A DNA stretch of 24,798 bases from IMG/VR virus record IMGVR_UViG_3300005346_000075, positions 1-24,798 of that record; one strand, written 5' to 3'. Every line of letters begins with the position of its first letter. The stretch's first letter is position 1. Below the pieces are notes generated by a model. That model saw nothing but the letters and a program-made list of their open reading frames with translations, had not been told where the DNA came from and did not search any database. Shown here one piece after another: positions 1,583 through 12,575 of this stretch. This DNA is from a virus. The position numbers and the translations under genes were made by a program.

Positions 1583-2319
1583 CTATTCAAACAAGTTTTC
1601 AGTTTCAACAATATTAAACCCTGCCATGAACGGGTGCGGTTGCCCTAACTGCCATTCGTCAATCTCCCTCAATCGTTGCTCCATGTTCTTGATATTCACC
1701 CGTGCGCTGCTGTTACGTAGCTTCATTGCTATGTCATTCCTTACGTAACTCATGTGGTGCATTAATATGGGCACTTCTTTGCATCTACCTACGGGGCTAG
1801 TGCCTCTAGTCGGGTCTACGTACACTTTAAATCCCCCTATGTTGCAGCTTGTTATCTTGCAAATAAACGGTACGTAGTAACTTTCTAAAGGCTCTAATCT
1901 GTAATTAGGTTGCTTCCAGTACGTAACCAATCTACAATAGCTTGTATCTAGGTCATTGTCTAATACAAACTGTTTCCCTTGCTCAAACTCACTAGGTATG
2001 TAATACTCGTCCGTATCAATGTGCATGAAATGGGTACACCCTAAGTCCTTTGCCAGCATAGTGCCTTTGAAACGCTTGTCGGCTTCGTTCTTTGTACCGC
2101 CGTTCTTTATGTTTGGGGTGTAGTAGTGATGGGTAATCTTTGGGTACTTAACGGATAATACTTGCACCATTATAGCCGTTTCCGGGTTGTGCTCACCAAA
2201 GTTGCTAACGTCTTGCCAAACTAATACGATATGGTCAACAAAAGGATAGATTAGGCTTATGGACGTTATTCCAAGTGCTCCAATCCGTCCCATACGTTGT
2301 ATACGGCTGCTAGTTTCAT
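1583..2319 (-). CDS. Glycosyltransferase, GT-A fold with DxD motif (frameshifted N-terminus)
   Basis: The rejoined protein starts at ATG 2319 (MKLAAVYNVWDGLEHL) and changes frame near 2275 to continue as GITSISLIYPFVDHIVLVW; about 245 residues. The start overlaps the preceding methyltransferase stop as ATGA. Visible features: an N-terminal strand, acceptor-type segment YTPNIKNGG, a basic helix NEADKRFKG, the metal-binding motif HIDTDEYY (DxD type), and a C-terminal segment with HHMSYVR. This matches glycosyltransferases that read 'MKLA..NVWDG.E.L..SI', related to GT2/GT92. It would transfer a sugar from a nucleotide-sugar donor; the acceptor is unknown. It is the last gene of the cassette. 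Confidence 0.75.
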
Positions 2320-3014
2320 TTGCTTTTTTTAGGTCTGCCACGCTTTTTAGGTGCTGGTGCTGGTTGTTCATCATCCGCAGGGAAACGCTCTTTATAAGCA
2401 ATTACTTTCGCTTCGGCTTCGCTACCTTCAAACGGTATAAACTCCGTCCCATCGGGTGCTAACGTGCTTGTAAACGGTAATTCATTGAACTTGCCACGGC
2501 TAGGGAACACATCACTTGTTTTACGTAACACACCGTATACGTTCCATCCATCAGTTACGTTACCCATTGCAGCGTGTTCACCAACTTCAATAAGTTCATA
2601 ACCTGCAACCTTGCATAGTTCAATATAAAACTCTTTGGTTAGGTAGTGGAAGCCATGCCCGTGCCAGTTGTCAACCTTTGGGTTTTCGCTTATAATCAAA
2701 CCACCAATTTTACAGGCGTTGTGTTTATTTAGCCAACAGTTATAATAATTGCTAACGTGCTCACTTGTGCCAAAATCGGTAACTATGTCAACTTGTGCCA
2801 ACTCTAAAACCGTTGATAAATCCGCAACCTCACAGCCATATTCGCCATTGGCATCTATACTGTGGTGCTCAAAACCTTGTTTGGTATAATAGTCTTTAGC
2901 TACTCCCATTTGTTCGCTATCAAAGTAGGTATTTTGGCTACCTAGTTCCAGCATTGTTTTGGCATTGCCTTTGTGCTTTTGCACTAGGTTGTTTGAGTGT
3001 GTTGTTACTCCCAT
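2316..3014 (-). CDS. SAM-dependent methyltransferase with C-terminal AT-hook
   Basis: This intact 232-residue protein has a class I methyltransferase N-terminus: motif I MLELGSQNTY, the acidic residue of motif II in HHSIDANGEYG, and DIVTDFGTSEHV near the usual motif IV position. The catalytic domain ends near residue 170. A linker follows, then the tail PAPKKRGRPKKSK, a textbook AT-hook core (RGRP) that binds the minor groove of AT-rich DNA. Neighbours are glycosyltransferases and an FkbM methyltransferase, suggesting sugar or glycan methylation; the AT-hook instead suggests a DNA-bound role. No DNA-MTase catalytic motif (DPPY or PCQ) was seen. The TGA overlaps the next ATG. Confidence 0.75.
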   Translation of the reverse strand: MGVTTHSNNLVQKHKGNAKTMLELGSQNTYFDSEQMGVAKDYYTKQGFEHHSIDANGEYGCEVADLSTVLELAQVDIVTDFGTSEHVSNYYNCWLNKHNACKIGGLIISENPKVDNWHGHGFHYLTKEFYIELCKVAGYELIEVGEHAAMGNVTDGWNVYGVLRKTSDVFPSRGKFNELPFTSTLAPDGTEFIPFEGSEAEAKVIAYKERFPADDEQPAPAPKKRGRPKKSK

Positions 3015-3069
3015 GTCGTTATGTTTTTTATATTGGTTTTTATTTATTTGAAACTCGAATGCAAACCCC

Positions 3070-3513
3070 TCACGTACACTTTTTTACGCCCGTAATAACA
3101 TCTAATATTACTTGATTATCCTCATTATCTAGGCAAATATTCATAGCATCATCCTGTACATTGTATAATACACACTTACCGTCAGCGTCAAAAACAAATA
3201 TTCTTGGGCGTGGGTAAATAAGTGTTGGGGGTTTATTTATCTCCCTCATCCCAAACCTAATGCCACCTTCTTTTTTAAATTCCCCTTTTACAAAATACTG
3301 CGAAGTATTGTAAGTACTATATGAGTGTGGGAAATTAGATAGCTTTCCATTTTCGTATGCACAATACCCATTAGCTAATAGTACATCTACAAATTTCATG
3401 TGGTTAGATTGATAACAGGCATACATCTGCCACCCCTGTCTTAGTTTGATTAATTGATTGTTATACTCGAATTGAACCCCCTGTCCAACTCTCATACATG
3501 ATAAAGGTCTCAT
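3070..3513 (-). CDS. Hypothetical protein, 147 aa
   Basis: An intact frame runs from ATG 3513 (MRPLSCMRVG) to TGA at 3070. I do not recognise the family. It is cysteine-containing (positions 6, 33, 51 and others) and rich in Tyr and Asn, with late segments TLIYPRPRIFVFDADGK and VILDVITGVKKC. No signal peptide or membrane segment is seen. A TATCTTGC box sits just upstream of the ATG. The gene lies between a glycosyltransferase-like gene and the AT-hook methyltransferase, so it may belong to the modification cassette, but its sequence does not show a catalytic motif. The start could be a little upstream, since the frame stays open into the previous gene's end. Confidence 0.6.
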   Translation of the reverse strand: MRPLSCMRVGQGVQFEYNNQLIKLRQGWQMYACYQSNHMKFVDVLLANGYCAYENGKLSNFPHSYSTYNTSQYFVKGEFKKEGGIRFGMREINKPPTLIYPRPRIFVFDADGKCVLYNVQDDAMNICLDNEDNQVILDVITGVKKCT

Positions 3514-3539
3514 GACCTTGCAAGATAGGTAAATTATTT

Positions 3540-4082
3540 CTATTTTATCAATAAGCTTGCTACTTGGTTTTGGTCGTGCCTATGGTCTTCCCAACTAACC
3601 TAAAAACGAACCATTTAAAGCACCCTCGTAGTACTGCTCGAATAAAATCTTTAGCCTTTCCCCTGTTAAGTCCCATAACACACGCTATAATCATAGGGGC
3701 TTGCATTTCGGTGCCGGTTATGCTGTAAATAGCCTTACAGCTATCGTTGCAGAACGAACCGATTGTATAGGTGTAGTTATTAAAGAACGCATAACCTGTT
3801 TGCTCTATGTGCTCAAATAGCTTATCCAAAGGGGCTGTACATTGAACCACACTATCAAGCCAAAGGATATTATCGTACCCATCGTCAAAAGCCTTTTTAA
3901 TGGCATAGGCTTTAAACGCATACGGGTTGTCTTGGTGCATCGGGCAACCTAATTGGTTTTCATGGTCATAACATCTGTACGTTCCGTTATACCCTTTCGC
4001 CCTCAATGACTCCTCTTGTGCTCTTGCTGCCCTTATGTAACGTGGGTTGCCCTTTAGCAAATGTGATAATTATGTTCCTCAT
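3540..4082 (-). CDS. Glycosyltransferase-like protein (GT-A type, frameshifted ends)
   Basis: The start at ATG 4082 (MRNIIITFAKG) overlaps the FkbM stop as ATGA. A frame change near 4055 leads to NPRYIRAARAQEESLRAKGY. The centre has FKAYAIKKAFDDGYDNILWLDSVV, in which the hydrophobic strand plus LDSVV occupies the place of a GT-A nucleotide-sugar/metal motif, followed by FFNNYTYTIGSFCND. After about residue 150 the frame shifts again, and EQYYEGALNGSFLG and EDHRHDQNQVASLL can be read in other frames. This pattern is common in phage and Bacteroidetes glycan clusters. It is about 180 residues when rejoined. Activity is inferred; donor and acceptor are unknown. Confidence 0.6.
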
Positions 4083-4685
4083 TTTGCGAATATCAAATTT
4101 TCTCCGTTACGGTGTATTTCTTTCATATCGAATTGAGCGCAATAGTCGATGTACTTTTGTGGCTCGATACCGTTGTACTCCACGCATACGCATTTAACAT
4201 CGGTTAAATCTATTTGGGTTAGTACCTCAAAGTCCATACCTTCAATGTCGATATTGATAAAAATACAAACGTGCGCCCGTTCATTATGCTCTTAACCGGT
4301 ATCACAAGGCACTTGCACCTCTGTAAACCGTTCTTTAACCCATCGTTGTTTTTCGCTTTCGATTATCGTACTCACCAAGCTAACATCTTCACCACCTAAA
4401 TGCGTGCCGCTTTCGTAGAACGTAATAAAACCCTTGTAAGGGGCTATCGCTACATTAACCACTTCTACGTTGTTATTTGTCTTTATAAACGCTCTTAGCT
4501 ATGTTTATAGCCTTTTCGCTGGCATCTACCAAAGTACCGCTCCACCCTCTTAACCCCAATGCACGGGTGTTGCTAAATGTTGCCCCGTCATTGCAGCCTA
4601 AATCTAAAAACGTACCAATATAATGTTCGCCAAAGTAGTCTAATATTACTTGCTGCTCATTGTTTTGGCTATATGTTTTTTGCAC
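4079..4685 (-). CDS. FkbM-family methyltransferase (frameshifted)
   Basis: The rejoined protein has about 200 residues. The N-terminus KTYSQNNEQQVILDYF is followed by SAM motif I GTFLDLGCNDGATFSNT and LVDASEKA (motif II region). After frame changes near 4490 and around 4295, the C-terminal half reads VVNVAIAPYKGFITFYE, then NIDIEGMDFEVLTQIDL, CVCVEYNG and HRNGENLIFAK. These are hallmark blocks of FkbM methyltransferases, which O-methylate sugars, lipids or polyketides. The visible start is GTG (4685), inside the end of the upstream glycosyltransferase; an ATG may have been lost to an indel. Its stop overlaps the next start as ATGA. The most likely substrate is a sugar hydroxyl added by neighbouring enzymes. 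Confidence 0.8.
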
Positions 4686-5242
4686 GACTTAATTTTTTAC
4701 TATGTTCGTAAATAGTCAATATACTATCTATGTGATACTCGGTATTCAATTTAGGTATTACTTGGCTCATGTAGTCCCAGTCTTCGCCATAACTGCTATC
4801 GTTGAACGTAGCGGCTAGTTCTTTTTTATGTGGGCAAATATGCCATGCGTTGCGATTAACGATGCCCTCGCTGCTCATTTGCTCGTTTTCGCTACCTAGT
4901 TTCATGCTTACTAGTCCGTAATAATTATCTAGCTTTATGAACGCATTGAACGTAACCACATCCGCACCGCTATCGCAACCAATCATAAGGCTAGATACGT
5001 AGTTGGGGGCTATCCAATCGTCATCGTCAATAAAGCATACGTATTCGCCTTTGGCTTTGTTTAAGCACATTTGCCGCTTTTGCCCTATGCTTTGCCCACC
5101 GTCTTTTTGTGCCACCGTAACAACTTTAACCACTTCTGCATCGGCTTCGCATTGTGCTATTTTGTTTGCTCAATTCCTTTACTAGCTTATTCAGCTTTAC
5201 CCTACGTTCAGGTATTGACGGTATTAATATACTTAACCTCAT
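4669..5242 (-). CDS. GT2 glycosyltransferase with DDDD motif (frameshifted N-terminus)
   Basis: It starts at ATG 5242 (MRLSILIPSIPERR), with ATGA overlap to the upstream gene. A frame change near 5150 leads to EVVKVVTVAQKDGGQSIGQK. The following RQMCLNKAKGEYVCFIDDDDWI is the classic GT2 nucleotide-sugar/metal-binding block; a later SSYGEDWDYMSQVIP matches the ED catalytic-base region. It is about 190 residues with no membrane anchor. It is closely similar in layout to the next gene upstream (5239-5799), suggesting duplication. The sugar and acceptor are not evident. Confidence 0.8.
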
Positions 5243-5799
5243 TTGCCTTGTGTGCTTATCGCTGTTTGGTAATCGTAATGGTACATATCCTTGTTAATGT
5301 AGACTTCTGTCTTTAACAACGGGTCGTAGCCTGTTTGAGTAGGTCGCATCTTCACCACTATTAATCCCCCTTGGAAATTTAACCTGCAAAGCTAACTCAC
5401 GTTTGACAGGGCAAAGGTGGTTTATAGTTCTGTAATAAACCCTATCCTTTTCGTACCAACTGTCAAAGGTATTACTAATCTTAAAGTTGTGGCGGTCTTT
5501 TCCGTTGGTTGTCATATACCCGTCAAATCCTACGCAGTCGGGTTTACTTTCAATAGCCTTTAACAGTTCAGCTATGTAATAACTAGGTACTAGGTCGTCA
5601 TCGTCAATAAATACTATGTAATCCCCTTTAGCTTTATCCAGCAACTCGTTGCGCTTATCGCTTATCTTCTTTTCCCGATTGTCGATAGACTACCAGCACC
5701 TCTACATCGCTATGCTCTTGCATATCAAGTATTGCCATTAACCTAGCTAACAAGTGGCTACGGTCTTTTGATTGAGCATATTAATATTGATAGTTTCAT
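5239..5799 (-). CDS. GT2 glycosyltransferase with DDDD motif (frameshifted)
   Basis: It starts at ATG 5799 (MKLSILICSIKDR), with ATGA overlaps at both ends. Frame changes near 5690 and 5310 are bridged to give about 187 residues. The blocks are: HLLARLMAILDMQEHSDVEV, then DNREKKISDKRNELLDKAKG, DYIVFIDDDDLVPSYY (metal and nucleotide-sugar binding), NHLCPVKRELA, GINSGEDATYSNRL (ED catalytic-base region), and a tail ending TEVYINKDMYHYDY. The order matches family 2 glycosyltransferases and parallels the downstream neighbour (4669-5242), including the shared stretches 'NHLCPVKREL' versus 'WHICPHKKEL'. It is soluble, and its substrate is unknown. Confidence 0.8.
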
Positions 5800-6475
5800 A
5801 GCCCGTAGTTTATTCTTACCCTTTGGTTGTGCAATGTTTGCCCTTGTGTCCACATGGTACTACTTCTATTGTATGTATTATCGTTAACGCTTTGTAGTTC
5901 CTTTGTTGGGTTACTAGGGTGCAAGTGTGGAAACTTTAAATCGGGTGCAAAATACTAACGCATTCATTATACGTGCAACATGGTATAAGTCCTCATCGCA
6001 AAACATTGACTTATATTCGGGGATAAAAGAAATACCCAAACTTATCATAAAACGCCCGTGTCATTATCGGTATAGTCAAAACCGCAACGCCCATAGCTTG
6101 TAAACAGTCGTCTACCTTTAGTATTTGTGGCTCGTTAGGTTTAACCCTATCAACTATTAGCCTATCCCAATCCTTAGGGCAATCAAAGTCATCACTAAGG
6201 TAAATAAGCACATCACCAGTAGCATACTTAGCCGCTGCGTTAGTCGCACCAACTACGTACCCATTGCTAGGGTTCTCCCTTACTATGTGGTGCGCTCCAA
6301 ACAATTCTACGTACCCATCGTATTTAGGTTCGTCCAAATCCAAACTAAGGATATGCTCAATGGTTATTTTTGATACTCCGCTGTTGTGCGCTTCGCTTTT
6401 ACCTATCCAATTAAGGTAGTTATTGTATGCCATTTGTGGACGGTTGCGGCTAGGGTGTATTAGGCTTATTCTCAT
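5796..6475 (-). CDS. Glycosyltransferase, GT2-like (frameshifted C-terminus)
   Basis: It starts at ATG 6475 (MRISLIHPSRNRP), with ATGA overlap to the preceding gene. The first 150 residues contain IVRENPSNGYVVGATNAAAKYATGDV and the metal-binding-type LIYLSDDFDCP, then AFYDKFGYFFYP. Beyond a frame change near 6020 the reading continues EYKSMFCDEDLYHVARIM (a DEDL catalytic-base-like block) and, after another shift, LKFPHLHPSNPTKE and a tail ending RVRINYGL. The rejoined length is about 225 residues. The D-D-F-D block and the DEDL-HLHP order are seen in phage GT2-like enzymes. Donor and acceptor are not evident. Confidence 0.72.
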
Positions 6476-6878
6476 GCAAATGCTTTTTTTACTTCAATGT
6501 CCAATTTCTCATTGCCAGTCATTAGCAAGTCAACTCTTTCTTTCCAATACTCCCATTAAATTATCTATAAAGTATTCAAACGATGCTATTGGATAGCTGC
6601 TAGTAGTTACCGTAGTTGATATGTTACCAATAATCCTATTCGGCTTTTGAGCAAAGTATTCTACGTTTGTTGGGCAAAACGGATAATCCATTAAATACTT
6701 ACTTCTATCTATACCCGAAATAAACCCACCAAATAAGCCTGTTTTTACAGTTGGAGAGTAATATGTAATATCGGTAAAAGTCATGCAAGTATCTAGGCTT
6801 TGCAAGTGATAGCATATGAACTACATAAGCACCGTAAGCCGCTTGTTTAGTTTGCCAATCTTGTGTGTCTAGTTTCAT
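6472..6878 (-). CDS. Hypothetical protein in the glycosyltransferase cassette (frameshifted)
   Basis: It starts at ATG 6878 (MKLDTQDWQTKQ), overlapping the upstream TGA, and ends with a TGA at 6472 that overlaps the next ATG. Two frame changes, near 6800 and 6540, are needed: YGAYVVHMLSLAK joins to SLDTCMTFTDITYYSP, and GVLERVDLLMTGNEKL closes the protein. About 135 residues. I do not recognise the family. The overlaps at both ends indicate co-translation with glycosyltransferases, so a role in the same modification is plausible but unproven. Confidence 0.55.
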
Positions 6879-7346
6879 TTAACCGATTTTAGTTGTTCGG
6901 TAGTTGGAACTTTAGCCGCCCTTACGTGCTCGTTAATCTCCCATATCCTAGCATACCATTGTGGGGTTTCACGTTCTGGCATTTCACTCAACAAGGTATC
7001 TAATATTTTTGCTCTGTCGCTACGTGCGGTTATTGAGTTCCTAGCCTTGCCTAATATTGCTGTGGCGTTCTCGTCAATGAATTTCATCTTAGCATCCCTA
7101 AATAATTCCTGTTGGGCTTTGTACTTGCTTAATGCTTTTCTAAGTAGTGCTCTTTAGCTTTGATGTTGGTTTCTAGGTCAAAACACTTCAATAGACAACT
7201 TCCAAAACTGCTCACTGTTTGGCAAAGCGTTATCAACTTGCCCTTGCTTTACTACCTAAGTAGCCATGCAGTAGACTTATGTATTTCTCCTCACGGGCAA
7301 ACCTATCTTGCCACTGTTGCTCTAGTTGTTCTTTATCGTACTCCAT
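6875..7346 (-). CDS. Hypothetical charged helical protein (frameshifted)
   Basis: It starts at ATG 7346 (MEYDKEQLEQQWQDRF), inside the end of the upstream glycosyltransferase, and ends at TGA 6875 with an ATGA overlap. Segments lie in three frames: AREEKYISLLHGYLGSK, then QVDNALPNSEQFWKLSIEVF, DLETNIKAKEHYLE, and KALSKYKAQQELFRDAKMKF running into ENATAILGKARNSITARSDR. The rejoined protein has about 155 residues. It is strongly charged and predicted helical, possibly coiled coil at the start. No catalytic motif is seen. It could be a chaperone or scaffold for the surrounding enzymes, or an unrelated structural accessory; nothing in the sequence decides. Confidence 0.55.
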
Positions 7347-8008
7347 TGTGCGTTTCGTTTATGTGTTGAAATTATATCGGTTACTATTATTGGGGTGATA
7401 CCTGCTTTCATGCTGTCAAGGTGAAACCAACTATCGCTGAACTTGCCTAGCTGGTTTGGGTCATGCCTAAACTTCACCTTTTCGAGCAAGGCACGGCTAA
7501 ACAGGCTACACCCTATTGACGGTATGCCTGTCTTTAGTTTGCCGTCAAAGAACCCTATACAGCTTTCCGCTGGCGGTACATCGTATCTACCGTAGTCGCC
7601 TTGGTTAACGCCCATTAGTTGAACTCCTAGCGTTGTTTTAACGCCCTCTTTAAGAAAGTAAGGCACGTTAATGTTATCGGTACGGTATGCTAGTAATTGC
7701 TCAATCGTATCAATTGGGCAAAAGTTATCGCATTCAAGACTGAACAGATAATCAAAGTTGTTAGTTAATGCGTATTCTTTTATTACTTCCTGTGATTGCG
7801 CTATGTATGCTTCGGGTCTTCCTTTAGGTTCTATCCTACGTACGTCAAAGCCTTTGATTGACTTATGCCAATTAGGGTCGGGGCTGTTGTCTACTAGGAT
7901 AATATGCAAATTAGGATAGCTTAACGTCCTAATGAATGATAACCACTCGTCAAGTACATACGCTTTACGTTGGCTTATCGGTGCTCCTAGTAATATCTTT
8001 GGTATCAT
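7322..8008 (-). CDS. Glycosyltransferase, GT-A fold
   Basis: This intact 228-residue protein begins MIPKILLGAPISQRKAYVLD. The N-terminal domain has a nucleotide-binding-type strand HIILVDNSPD, a basic segment VRRIEPKGRPEAYIAQSQEV, and the metal-binding-type block YLFSLECDNFCP (ExD variant of the DxD motif). A later DSWFHLDSMKAG resembles the catalytic-base region, and IVTDIISTHKRN closes the domain. The order fits GT2-like glycosyltransferases of phage cassettes. It is the first enzyme of the cassette, just after the small gene at 8014. The start follows a weak spacing with no ribosome binding site. Substrate is unknown. Confidence 0.75.
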   Translation of the reverse strand: MIPKILLGAPISQRKAYVLDEWLSFIRTLSYPNLHIILVDNSPDPNWHKSIKGFDVRRIEPKGRPEAYIAQSQEVIKEYALTNNFDYLFSLECDNFCPIDTIEQLLAYRTDNINVPYFLKEGVKTTLGVQLMGVNQGDYGRYDVPPAESCIGFFDGKLKTGIPSIGCSLFSRALLEKVKFRHDPNQLGKFSDSWFHLDSMKAGITPIIVTDIISTHKRNAQWSTIKNN

Positions 8009-10906: not shown

Positions 10907-11963
10907 TTATTCTATTCTTTGATGTTGTACCTTGCATTTTACGAGCATTTTCACTTCCGTTACTCTACCATATCTTATACAATTCCAATCTTTTGACTTT
11001 TTTAAGTTAAATATTAAGCTAGGCGCAGAAGTAGCAATGACATATCTTTGTTTCTGTCTTTTGTAAATATACCCTATTTCATTCAAAAACCTTATACCAA
11101 AACCTGCGCCCTGATAATCTGGCAATATAACAAGTCTATGCACCTTTTTTATGTTTTTGACTTTAGGATGCGGAAAATGTAATACACTTAAAAACCCCGC
11201 TATTTGATTGTTTATAGTTGCTATGTAAACAGTTGCTGCGTTATTATGTGAATGGCTTAAATAATGGTGCTTAGCAAAACATCTTCCAAATTGATTTGTT
11301 ATTTGCTTGGTAGATTTCTAAATTTAATGTTTGGTCTATTTTTTTTTTGCCCTTAAAAAACTTTGAAAGGTCATTGTGTCAGTATTAAAAATACCAAATC
11401 GGGGAAGGTAAACCAAATCTCCTACATCTTCATGACAAGTAAACTGCTATAAAATTTCTTGTTTGTTTTTCGTATTGCTTTTTGCATAGCAAATGAACCT
11501 ATTTGTGCAACATTTCTATCGACTACTGATGTAAACTCGTCAAACACAAATAATTGATTGTCTTCTAATATTGCCCTTGCTAAATCAACTCGCATTTTTT
11601 GACCATTAGATAATACGCTATAAGGCTTTAACCAACTTGGCGGGCTTGAAAAGCCAACTGAATTAAATGCGGAAGTTATATCTTCCACAGATTTATTTTT
11701 AGGCATATCATCCAAAACCGTTTCACTACTGTATGTAAAGTTAGTAACGTAGCTATGCTCAAATAGTTGCTTTGCAATTGTTGTTTTTGCCAGTTCCGCT
11801 TTTTCCCAACTATTAAACCCACTTGCCAATTATCTGCAATGTCAATATTGCCCTTAAAGTGCTCTACAATGTGTTCTGATTGCAAATCAAATTTACCGAT
11901 AACTGAAGATACCCTAAATGTTAGTTTTGGTTTTACTTCTTTTATAATGTCAAAAGTCGGCAT
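10907..11963 (-). CDS. ABC-type ATPase fused to GNAT acetyltransferase, COG2401-like (frameshifted)
   Basis: It starts at ATG 11963 (MPTFDIIKEVKPKLTF), inside the end of the ParB-like gene. The ATPase has Walker A GKSGTGKTT, recovered by shortening two A5 runs near 11795 to A4, then the ABC signature region LSNGQKMRVDLARAI, Walker B NQLFVFDEFTS, and the H-loop AVTCHEDVG. After another break near 11350 the second domain reads FAKHHYLSH, IAGFLSVLHFPHP, and a GNAT acetyl-CoA loop HRLVILPDYQGAGFGIRFL. About 350 residues. ABC ATPases fused to a predicted acetyltransferase form COG2401; cellular role unknown. It lies between ParB-like and terminase genes, suggesting DNA-linked work. Confidence 0.85.
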
Positions 11964-12456
11964 TCGTAACCTTTTTCTATTAACTGATTATATACTAACT
12001 CTTGGTGTTGCTCGTCTTTGCATACAACTTCTATTCTAAACATCTTTTCAATGTTATCTGACAAATCATCTTGCTCGTCAGCATCGGGCGCAAAATTAGG
12101 TATATCAAGTCCCCACTCCTCTAGTTTTTCAACATCCCATTCATTTGCCAGTTGCTCCCCAGTCCCCATTCGCCAAACCCTACGTTATCCTTGATTATAA
12201 ACTGCCTTTGCTCATCCTCGGTCAGTTCACTAGCTTGCTTTACCCATGTATCGGGTATTTCATCGTATTTAAGGTGTTGCAGGGCTTTTAAGCGCATATT
12301 GCCACCAAGTAGTACGTTATCATCATTTACTACCATTGGGCGCAATTCAAGCATCTTTGGGAACTCCTTTATTGAGTTTACTAGCTTGTGGAACTTATCG
12401 TCCTTGATGACCCTCGGATTGCTTGGGTTCGGTTTTATGTCTTTTAGCTTTATCAT
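11942..12456 (-). CDS. ParB/Srx-like N-terminal domain protein (frameshifted)
   Basis: It starts at ATG 12456 (MIKLKDIKPNPSNPRVI) with ATGA overlap to the upstream small gene. The ParB domain is clear: PNPSNPR, RPMVVNDDNVLLGGNMRLKAL (the G-G-N-x-R nucleotide-binding loop), and FIIKDNVGFGEW. A frame change near 12165 joins to EQLANEWDVEKLEEWGLDIP, a stretch usual in phage ParB-like proteins. The C-terminus FRIEVVCKDEQHQELVYNQL to CRLLTL is a separate small alpha/beta segment. About 170 residues. Such proteins bind or hydrolyse nucleotides and often partner DNA-modifying enzymes. Its end overlaps the ABC-GNAT gene by 22 nt, indicating coupled expression. Confidence 0.85.
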
Positions 12457-12575
12457 TTGGCTTTGGTTTGTTTTTTATACTCAGCATAGCAAATAGCCGC
12501 CGCTTGGTCGCTGGGCTTGCCTGCATTGGTTTCAACTGGTATGCACCGCTTTAAATACTCGCTGGCTTTTTTCAT
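12453..12575 (-). CDS. Small conserved-looking protein, 40 aa
   Basis: A clean 40-codon frame starts at ATG 12575 (MKKASEYLKRCIPVETNAG) and ends with a TGA overlapping the ParB ATG. The motif KPSDQAAAICYAEYKKQ resembles short phage ORFs with 'QAAAIC(Y/F)' endings. It is positively charged and soluble. Placement between early small genes and ParB, with the overlap, supports a real gene. Function unknown. Confidence 0.6.
   Translation of the reverse strand: MKKASEYLKRCIPVETNAGKPSDQAAAICYAEYKKQTKAK

Follow-up and report, generated by a model that had tools for sequence, protein, structure and literature searches.

The 24,798-nucleotide IMG/VR virus record IMGVR_UViG_3300005346_000075 (hereafter the window, a complete 24.8-kb record with many frameshifts, whose genes lie on the minus strand) contains at positions 1583-8008 a block of eleven overlapping genes, including those for glycosyltransferases (GTs) and methyltransferases. 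We found that the edges of this block are conserved among close relatives, that its core is cleanly exchanged between them, and that related blocks recur in 22 further phage lineages, in 20 of them near head, packaging or tail genes. The block is probably a virion-glycosylation cassette with allelic core exchange, the products of which would glycosylate and methylate a virion protein in the cytoplasm. The core exchange, a tail shared by unrelated methyltransferases and the wide recurrence all go beyond a preliminary description of the window, which had viewed the block as a sugar/methyl modification cassette inserted between packaging and neck genes.

Alignment of intact proteins from related phages to the window showed that the block is real, with eleven genes joined mostly by ATGA-type overlaps, as had been described. 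Most of the gene boundaries stood as well, but the gene called 3540 extends to ~3404 and the 3070 gene begins near 3399, the first ~110 bp of the latter as earlier listed being the end of its neighbor, and the linker gene at 6875 is about twice its earlier-listed length (in relatives, it encodes ~155 aa rather than 70 aa). The block lies downstream of the large terminase, which is broken by frameshifts (pieces 10456-9168; phrog_2, E-value = 3.6e-7; PF17289, E-value = 5e-4). Its first gene is GT2-like (family c3, 7322-8008; 71-86% identity in same-site relatives) and forms the conserved left edge. It is followed by the linker gene (c4, 6875-7346), a small variable gene (c49, 6472-6878), whose spot is occupied in relatives by c83 or c41, and three genes for GT2 glycosyltransferases: c10 (5796-6475), the most widely shared gene of the block, c11 with a DDDD motif (5239-5799), and a second member of c11 (4669-5242), which is extra in the window phage and absent from the relative L014. 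Further along are an FkbM-family methyltransferase (c6, 4079-4688), a putative transferase (c12, 3404-4081), the order of which is kept in distant phages, a small gene of ~109 aa that is likewise extra in the window phage (3070-3399, boundary taken from the alignment), a predicted class I S-adenosylmethionine-dependent methyltransferase (c17, 2316-3014) and, as the conserved right edge, the last GT (c5, 1583-2319) with a DTDEYY motif.

Profile searches, which had been proposed as a check, placed three GT2 proteins and one FkbM protein above the cut-offs. The 5796, 5239 and 4669 proteins matched PF00535 with 31.1, 39.4 and 30.9 bits (cut-off 23.3; E-values 2.8e-7, 7.8e-10 and 3.1e-7), and their PHROG families, phrog_14945 for the first (4.4e-14) and phrog_14775 for the other two (3.8e-32 and 4.3e-27), are phage glycosyltransferases. 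The 4079 protein exceeded the PF05050 cut-off (31.4 vs 22.7 bits, E-value = 2.5e-7), as did its relative in L011 the cut-off of TIGR01444 (50.3 vs 37.7 bits, E-value = 3.3e-13); presumably, it O-methylates sugars. Neither PF00535 nor another GT family was matched above cut-off by the 7322, 3540 and 1583 proteins. The AlphaFold2 model of the c5 family (pLDDT 91.8) produced Foldseek matches to the GT-A enzymes SpsA and SunS (E-value ~1e-7), and also to RmlT and GalNAc-T; by this model, the 1583 protein is a GT-A fold glycosyltransferase despite having no family match. By the same approach, a class I methyltransferase fold was obtained for the 2316 protein, in agreement with the second methyltransferase proposed earlier alongside FkbM; its C-terminal tail, ending in KKRGRPKKSK, was modeled with low confidence. 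Of the six GT-like proteins in the preliminary description, the 5796, 5239, 4669 and 1583 products were thus upheld; the 7322 protein stayed below threshold (GT2 E-values 0.02-0.05; 0.005 for the L014 copy), and the GT label of the 3540 protein is not established, since nothing useful was matched in Pfam, NCBIfam or PDB. Searches of solved-structure sequences with c5, c12 and c17 returned nothing useful, and a weak match of c10 to polypeptide GalNAc-transferases (E-value = 0.011) was not used as evidence.

The exchange of the core is best seen by comparing relatives L014 and L013. Their DNA is 87-92% identical on both sides of the core, up to and including the final base of the linker gene on one side and from where the methyltransferase tail ends on the other, but the cores in between (3.7 and 2.8 kb, respectively) have no DNA similarity. 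The L014 core has the order GT-GT-FkbM-c12-methyltransferase, whereas that of L013 consists of a different set of GTs, another FkbM-type protein and a relative of the Methyltransf_24-like protein of L003. The latter phage has the same core type as L013, plus a PS_pyruv_trans protein (E-value = 1.1e-12). Comparison of the window with L003 revealed the same pattern of conserved edges around dissimilar cores, with DNA similarity resuming at window position ~2461. In sequence terms, the left junction is the linker gene stop inside ATGA, and the right junction is the conserved coding sequence of the KKRGRP tail, which leads into the 5' end of the last GT gene. This tail is joined to two unrelated methyltransferases, in the window (2316-2470) and in the FkbM protein of L003 (L003:11107-11937), and a longer version of ~47 residues is common to both. 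We considered whether the tail might be a general feature of these methyltransferases and rejected this, as distant c17 relatives lack it; for the same reason it appears to be a feature of this phage group that marks a recombination boundary. In L002, a further break is located inside the c10 GT, directly after the SDDFDCP motif. The c10 GT looks chimeric at this break when L002:13339-14007 is compared with L010:10137-10811, the N-terminal halves being nearly identical and the C-terminal halves different. The relative G005 encodes an ERF recombinase, which may play a role in the core exchange.

Relatives L002, L003 and L010-L014 were collected in scans with the terminase and the edge genes; L011 and L012 look like one phage, which gives six or seven relatives in total. 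The terminase alignment was too diverse for use in the contig scan. Comparison with related phages had been set beforehand as a check, and the block is at the same site in every close relative covering it, after the terminase and small genes and before c7. Wherever their contigs extend over these genes, all relatives retain the linker gene as well as the first and last GTs. The sole blockless relative has a terminase at 53% identity, and scans with the neck gene detected no site-covering contig devoid of the cassette. Because the site is the same in all covering close relatives and the order is conserved elsewhere, the block is not a chance assembly. It is a resident locus of the phage group with an exchanged core, and "inserted" is therefore imprecise; the adjoining terminase is as described, but the "neck" label of the c7 gene (390-865), which follows the block where the contig extends that far and has no Pfam or PHROG match, comes from position alone. 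Upstream, the terminase occurs in two divergent versions, clusters c9 and c36, each of which matches Terminase_3 and is independent of cassette type; core types A and C are each found with both. Such divergent large subunits occupy the same position in L003 (3905-5188) and L014 (7650-8849). In L011 (15583-19499), and also in L012, three genes are inserted behind the last GT, ahead of the structural gene that follows, namely, an IS1595-type transposase followed by an HsdM-like and HsdS-like type I restriction pair; the families were confirmed, and no HsdR was seen in the insert.

The cassette is not confined to this group. A scan with c10 identified 35 contigs, comprising, outside the window group, 22 lineages at <90% identity. 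c11 was found within three genes of c10 in 21 of these lineages and c5 downstream in 16. In 20, the flank that was fetched includes a gene for a virion structural protein; for representatives of these proteins, the identity was verified. The slot differs among lineages. In 12 of them, one ending before the terminase, the cassette lies between the tail sheath and GpA terminase genes on the opposite strand. The other slots are capsid/portal (four lineages, some incomplete), portal/protease/capsid (one), beside the terminase (two) and before the tape measure gene (one). The contractile-tail phage L045 keeps the order c10-c11-FkbM-c12-c17-c5. In two distant phages, a GDP-mannose 4,6-dehydratase is encoded near the cassette (L084:6118-8011 and L089:2777-3754), in L084 beside a gene resembling that of a sugar epimerase; the dehydratase suggests deoxysugar donors in these phages. 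No sugar-nucleotide gene was recognized in the window, so that donors there would be supplied by the host.

Virion glycosylation with methylated sugars seems to be the simplest explanation of these observations, the assignment being made by functional resemblance and through one homologous GT family. The earlier proposal that an oligosaccharide is built and methyl-capped on a virion protein is thus the best-supported one, given the structural neighbors in 20 of 22 lineages, the homology of c11 to gp108 of phage Che8 (see below) and the lack of membrane-anchored GTs, flippases and lipid-carrier enzymes in the scanned cassettes. A hydropathy scan of relatives' cassettes revealed no clear transmembrane segment in the cassette proteins, which suggests that the enzymes would meet their acceptor in the cytoplasm. 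A candidate is the 183-aa protein encoded directly after the capsid gene, which is common to the L087 group at low identity; in that group, the cassette comes shortly after it. Soluble phage enzymes would act in succession in the host cytoplasm: the conserved first set (7322, 5796 and 5239/4669) would start and extend the glycan on the virion protein, the FkbM and class I methyltransferases would O-methylate it, and the conserved last GT (1583) would complete it. The core would be swapped between phages as a module via flanks that are homologous (left, the linker gene; right, the KKRGRP tail with the last GT), probably aided by the phage-encoded ERF recombinase. Such exchange would alter glycan chemistry, through other sugars or through decoration with methyl or pyruvyl groups, and leave structural genes untouched, and the advantage might be altered adsorption or a particle that escapes recognition. 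More tentatively, and with slightly less than even confidence, the cassette might be regarded as a phage "serotype" locus, that is, a widespread virion-glycan cassette of mainly Bacteroidota-linked phages with fixed edges and an exchangeable core, functionally analogous to bacterial O-antigen or capsule loci, by which near-identical phages would wear chemically different coats. Recombination at such a locus would substitute entire pathways and even attach one and the same tail to unrelated methyltransferases. If so, phage surfaces would have switchable sugar coats, selected by something beyond structural proteins. The matched pair L013/L014, with a similar backbone but different cassettes, makes this idea directly testable.

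Several points weigh against virion glycosylation. Neither the acceptor protein nor the glycan has been observed, and the phage collection contains no isolate with this cassette. There is no homolog here of Che8 gp110, a GT that has been called essential, or of the Corndog gp38 type (represented in the test by Firecracker gp36); c3 and c12 are insecure as GTs; and the methyltransferase carries an AT-hook-like tail, which would also suit an enzyme associated with DNA. In addition, contractile-tail phages carry the cassette on the strand opposite to its structural neighbors, so that membership in a late operon is not universal. Tyrosine-recombinase-like genes, as judged by eye, are present in at least one of their contigs (G009). 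The opposite-strand arrangement, which makes the block a separate, moron-like unit, would suit a cassette that modifies host surface glycans (lipopolysaccharide, capsule or glycoprotein) and thereby blocks superinfection or changes the receptor, like seroconverting gtr genes. Weak NCBIfam matches of c11 to surface-polysaccharide GTs and the polysaccharide pyruvyltransferase of one variant point in the same direction. We nevertheless consider this explanation unlikely, because the scanned cassettes have none of the membrane and lipid-carrier components mentioned above, the cassette is located among head, packaging and tail genes, and the last-GT family is present in just four loci of a bacterial and archaeal genome set of 84,980 species. 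Temperate seroconversion was rejected, as no tyrosine integrase (PF00589) was detected in five contigs of the window group, other recombinase types not having been searched.

The resemblance of the tail to an AT hook bears, too, on sugar hypermodification of phage DNA as a means of evading restriction. DNA glycosylation is known from GT-rich phages, according to PMC12619734 citing Pyle 2024, and one c11 copy weakly matches beta-glucosyl-HMC-alpha-glucosyltransferase (E-value = 0.016). However, the thymidylate-synthase/dCMP-hydroxymethylase family (PF00303) was searched for in ten contigs and is absent, with controls working; no C5 methylase scored above the cut-off, the sub-cut-off match being stop-riddled and restricted to G005; and the cassette is located with virion genes. 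G005 encodes an N6/N4 DNA methylase elsewhere, suggesting that DNA protection may be handled separately. In the search for TET (PF12851), the control itself gave no match. The DNA option, already regarded as weakened, is further disfavored for the thymidylate-synthase/dCMP-hydroxymethylase route, and we deem hypermodification quite unlikely overall. It is highly improbable that the block is a decayed or passenger cluster derived from a host polysaccharide locus and devoid of phage function, as its variable content and the frameshifts in the window might suggest. The block genes of relatives are open reading frames under purifying selection, with dN/dS of 0.04-0.13 for the cassette enzymes (0.04-0.07 for the 7322 gene) and values reaching 0.19 in the linker gene, and gene order is conserved in the 22 lineages. 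Since the terminase is frameshifted as much as the block and the relatives' genes are intact, the frameshifts in the window look like sequencing errors, and decay, which had been named as one outcome that would undo the earlier proposal, was rejected.

The host is likely to be a member of Bacteroidota, judging from the relatives of the terminase, mainly found in phages of Flavobacterium, Cellulophaga, Polaribacter and Bacteroides, and from the last-GT loci in the genome set, three of four being in Bacteroidetes or Chitinophagaceae metagenome-assembled genomes. Both ends of the 47-kb contig G005 lie within one tail gene, and it may therefore represent a near-complete permuted genome; no terminal overlap was found in it. 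Upstream of the terminase, the window (10910-12474) encodes a ParB_N-like protein, a piece of an ABC-type ATPase and a GNAT acetyltransferase. In L002 (4143-6563), the replicative helicase DnaB is interrupted by an intein with a LAGLIDADG homing endonuclease, and a shorter helicase open reading frame is present in L013.

Virion glycosylation of tailed phages has been demonstrated, in the literature consulted, for mycobacteriophages, and is predicted here for Bacteroidota-linked phages of several particle types, together with a modular locus that has alleles swapping between closely related genomes. Glycosylated virion proteins of Che8, Corndog and Myrna are reported in PMC12363180 (citing Freeman 2023), where Che8 gp110 and Corndog gp38 are called essential, and virion glycosylation is assigned to the Che8 GT cluster gp108-110 (Freeman 2023, via PMC12363180 and PMC11256854). 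Like the window block, the Che8 cluster has several GTs side by side in a tailed-phage genome, and its gp108 is homologous to c11 (39% identity over 93%; hidden Markov model E-value = 1.5e-48). The Che8 cluster differs in its location at the right end of the genome and in having no neighbor annotated as a methyltransferase, whereas the window block is larger, lies in the structural region, exchanges its core and has no gp110 homolog. The c11 proteins of relatives are 38-40% identical to actinophage GTs, and the family includes gp15 of the Omegavirus LittleE, the GT cassette of which (gp15-gp21) is located between the major capsid and head-tail connector genes; it differs in containing a kinase, in having no annotated FkbM methyltransferase and in its actinobacterial host. 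In Corndog, which is among the phages with reported glycosylated proteins, genes for an O-methyltransferase and three transferases lie between those for the portal and the protease, and their products have been suggested to modify the capsid (PMC4351075). Corndog and Firecracker, whose cassette includes a GlcNAc-transferase, resemble the window phage in having a methyltransferase and GTs inside the virion structural operon, but the Firecracker set has four genes instead of eleven, and profile searches indicate that its four proteins are not homologous to those of the block. The glycosylation clusters of PBCV-1 and mimivirus, which belong to eukaryotic giant viruses, are nevertheless alike in gene content, combining virus-encoded GTs and class I methyltransferases with clade-specific genes, and that of Megavirus chilensis includes a pyruvyltransferase (PMC9614988).

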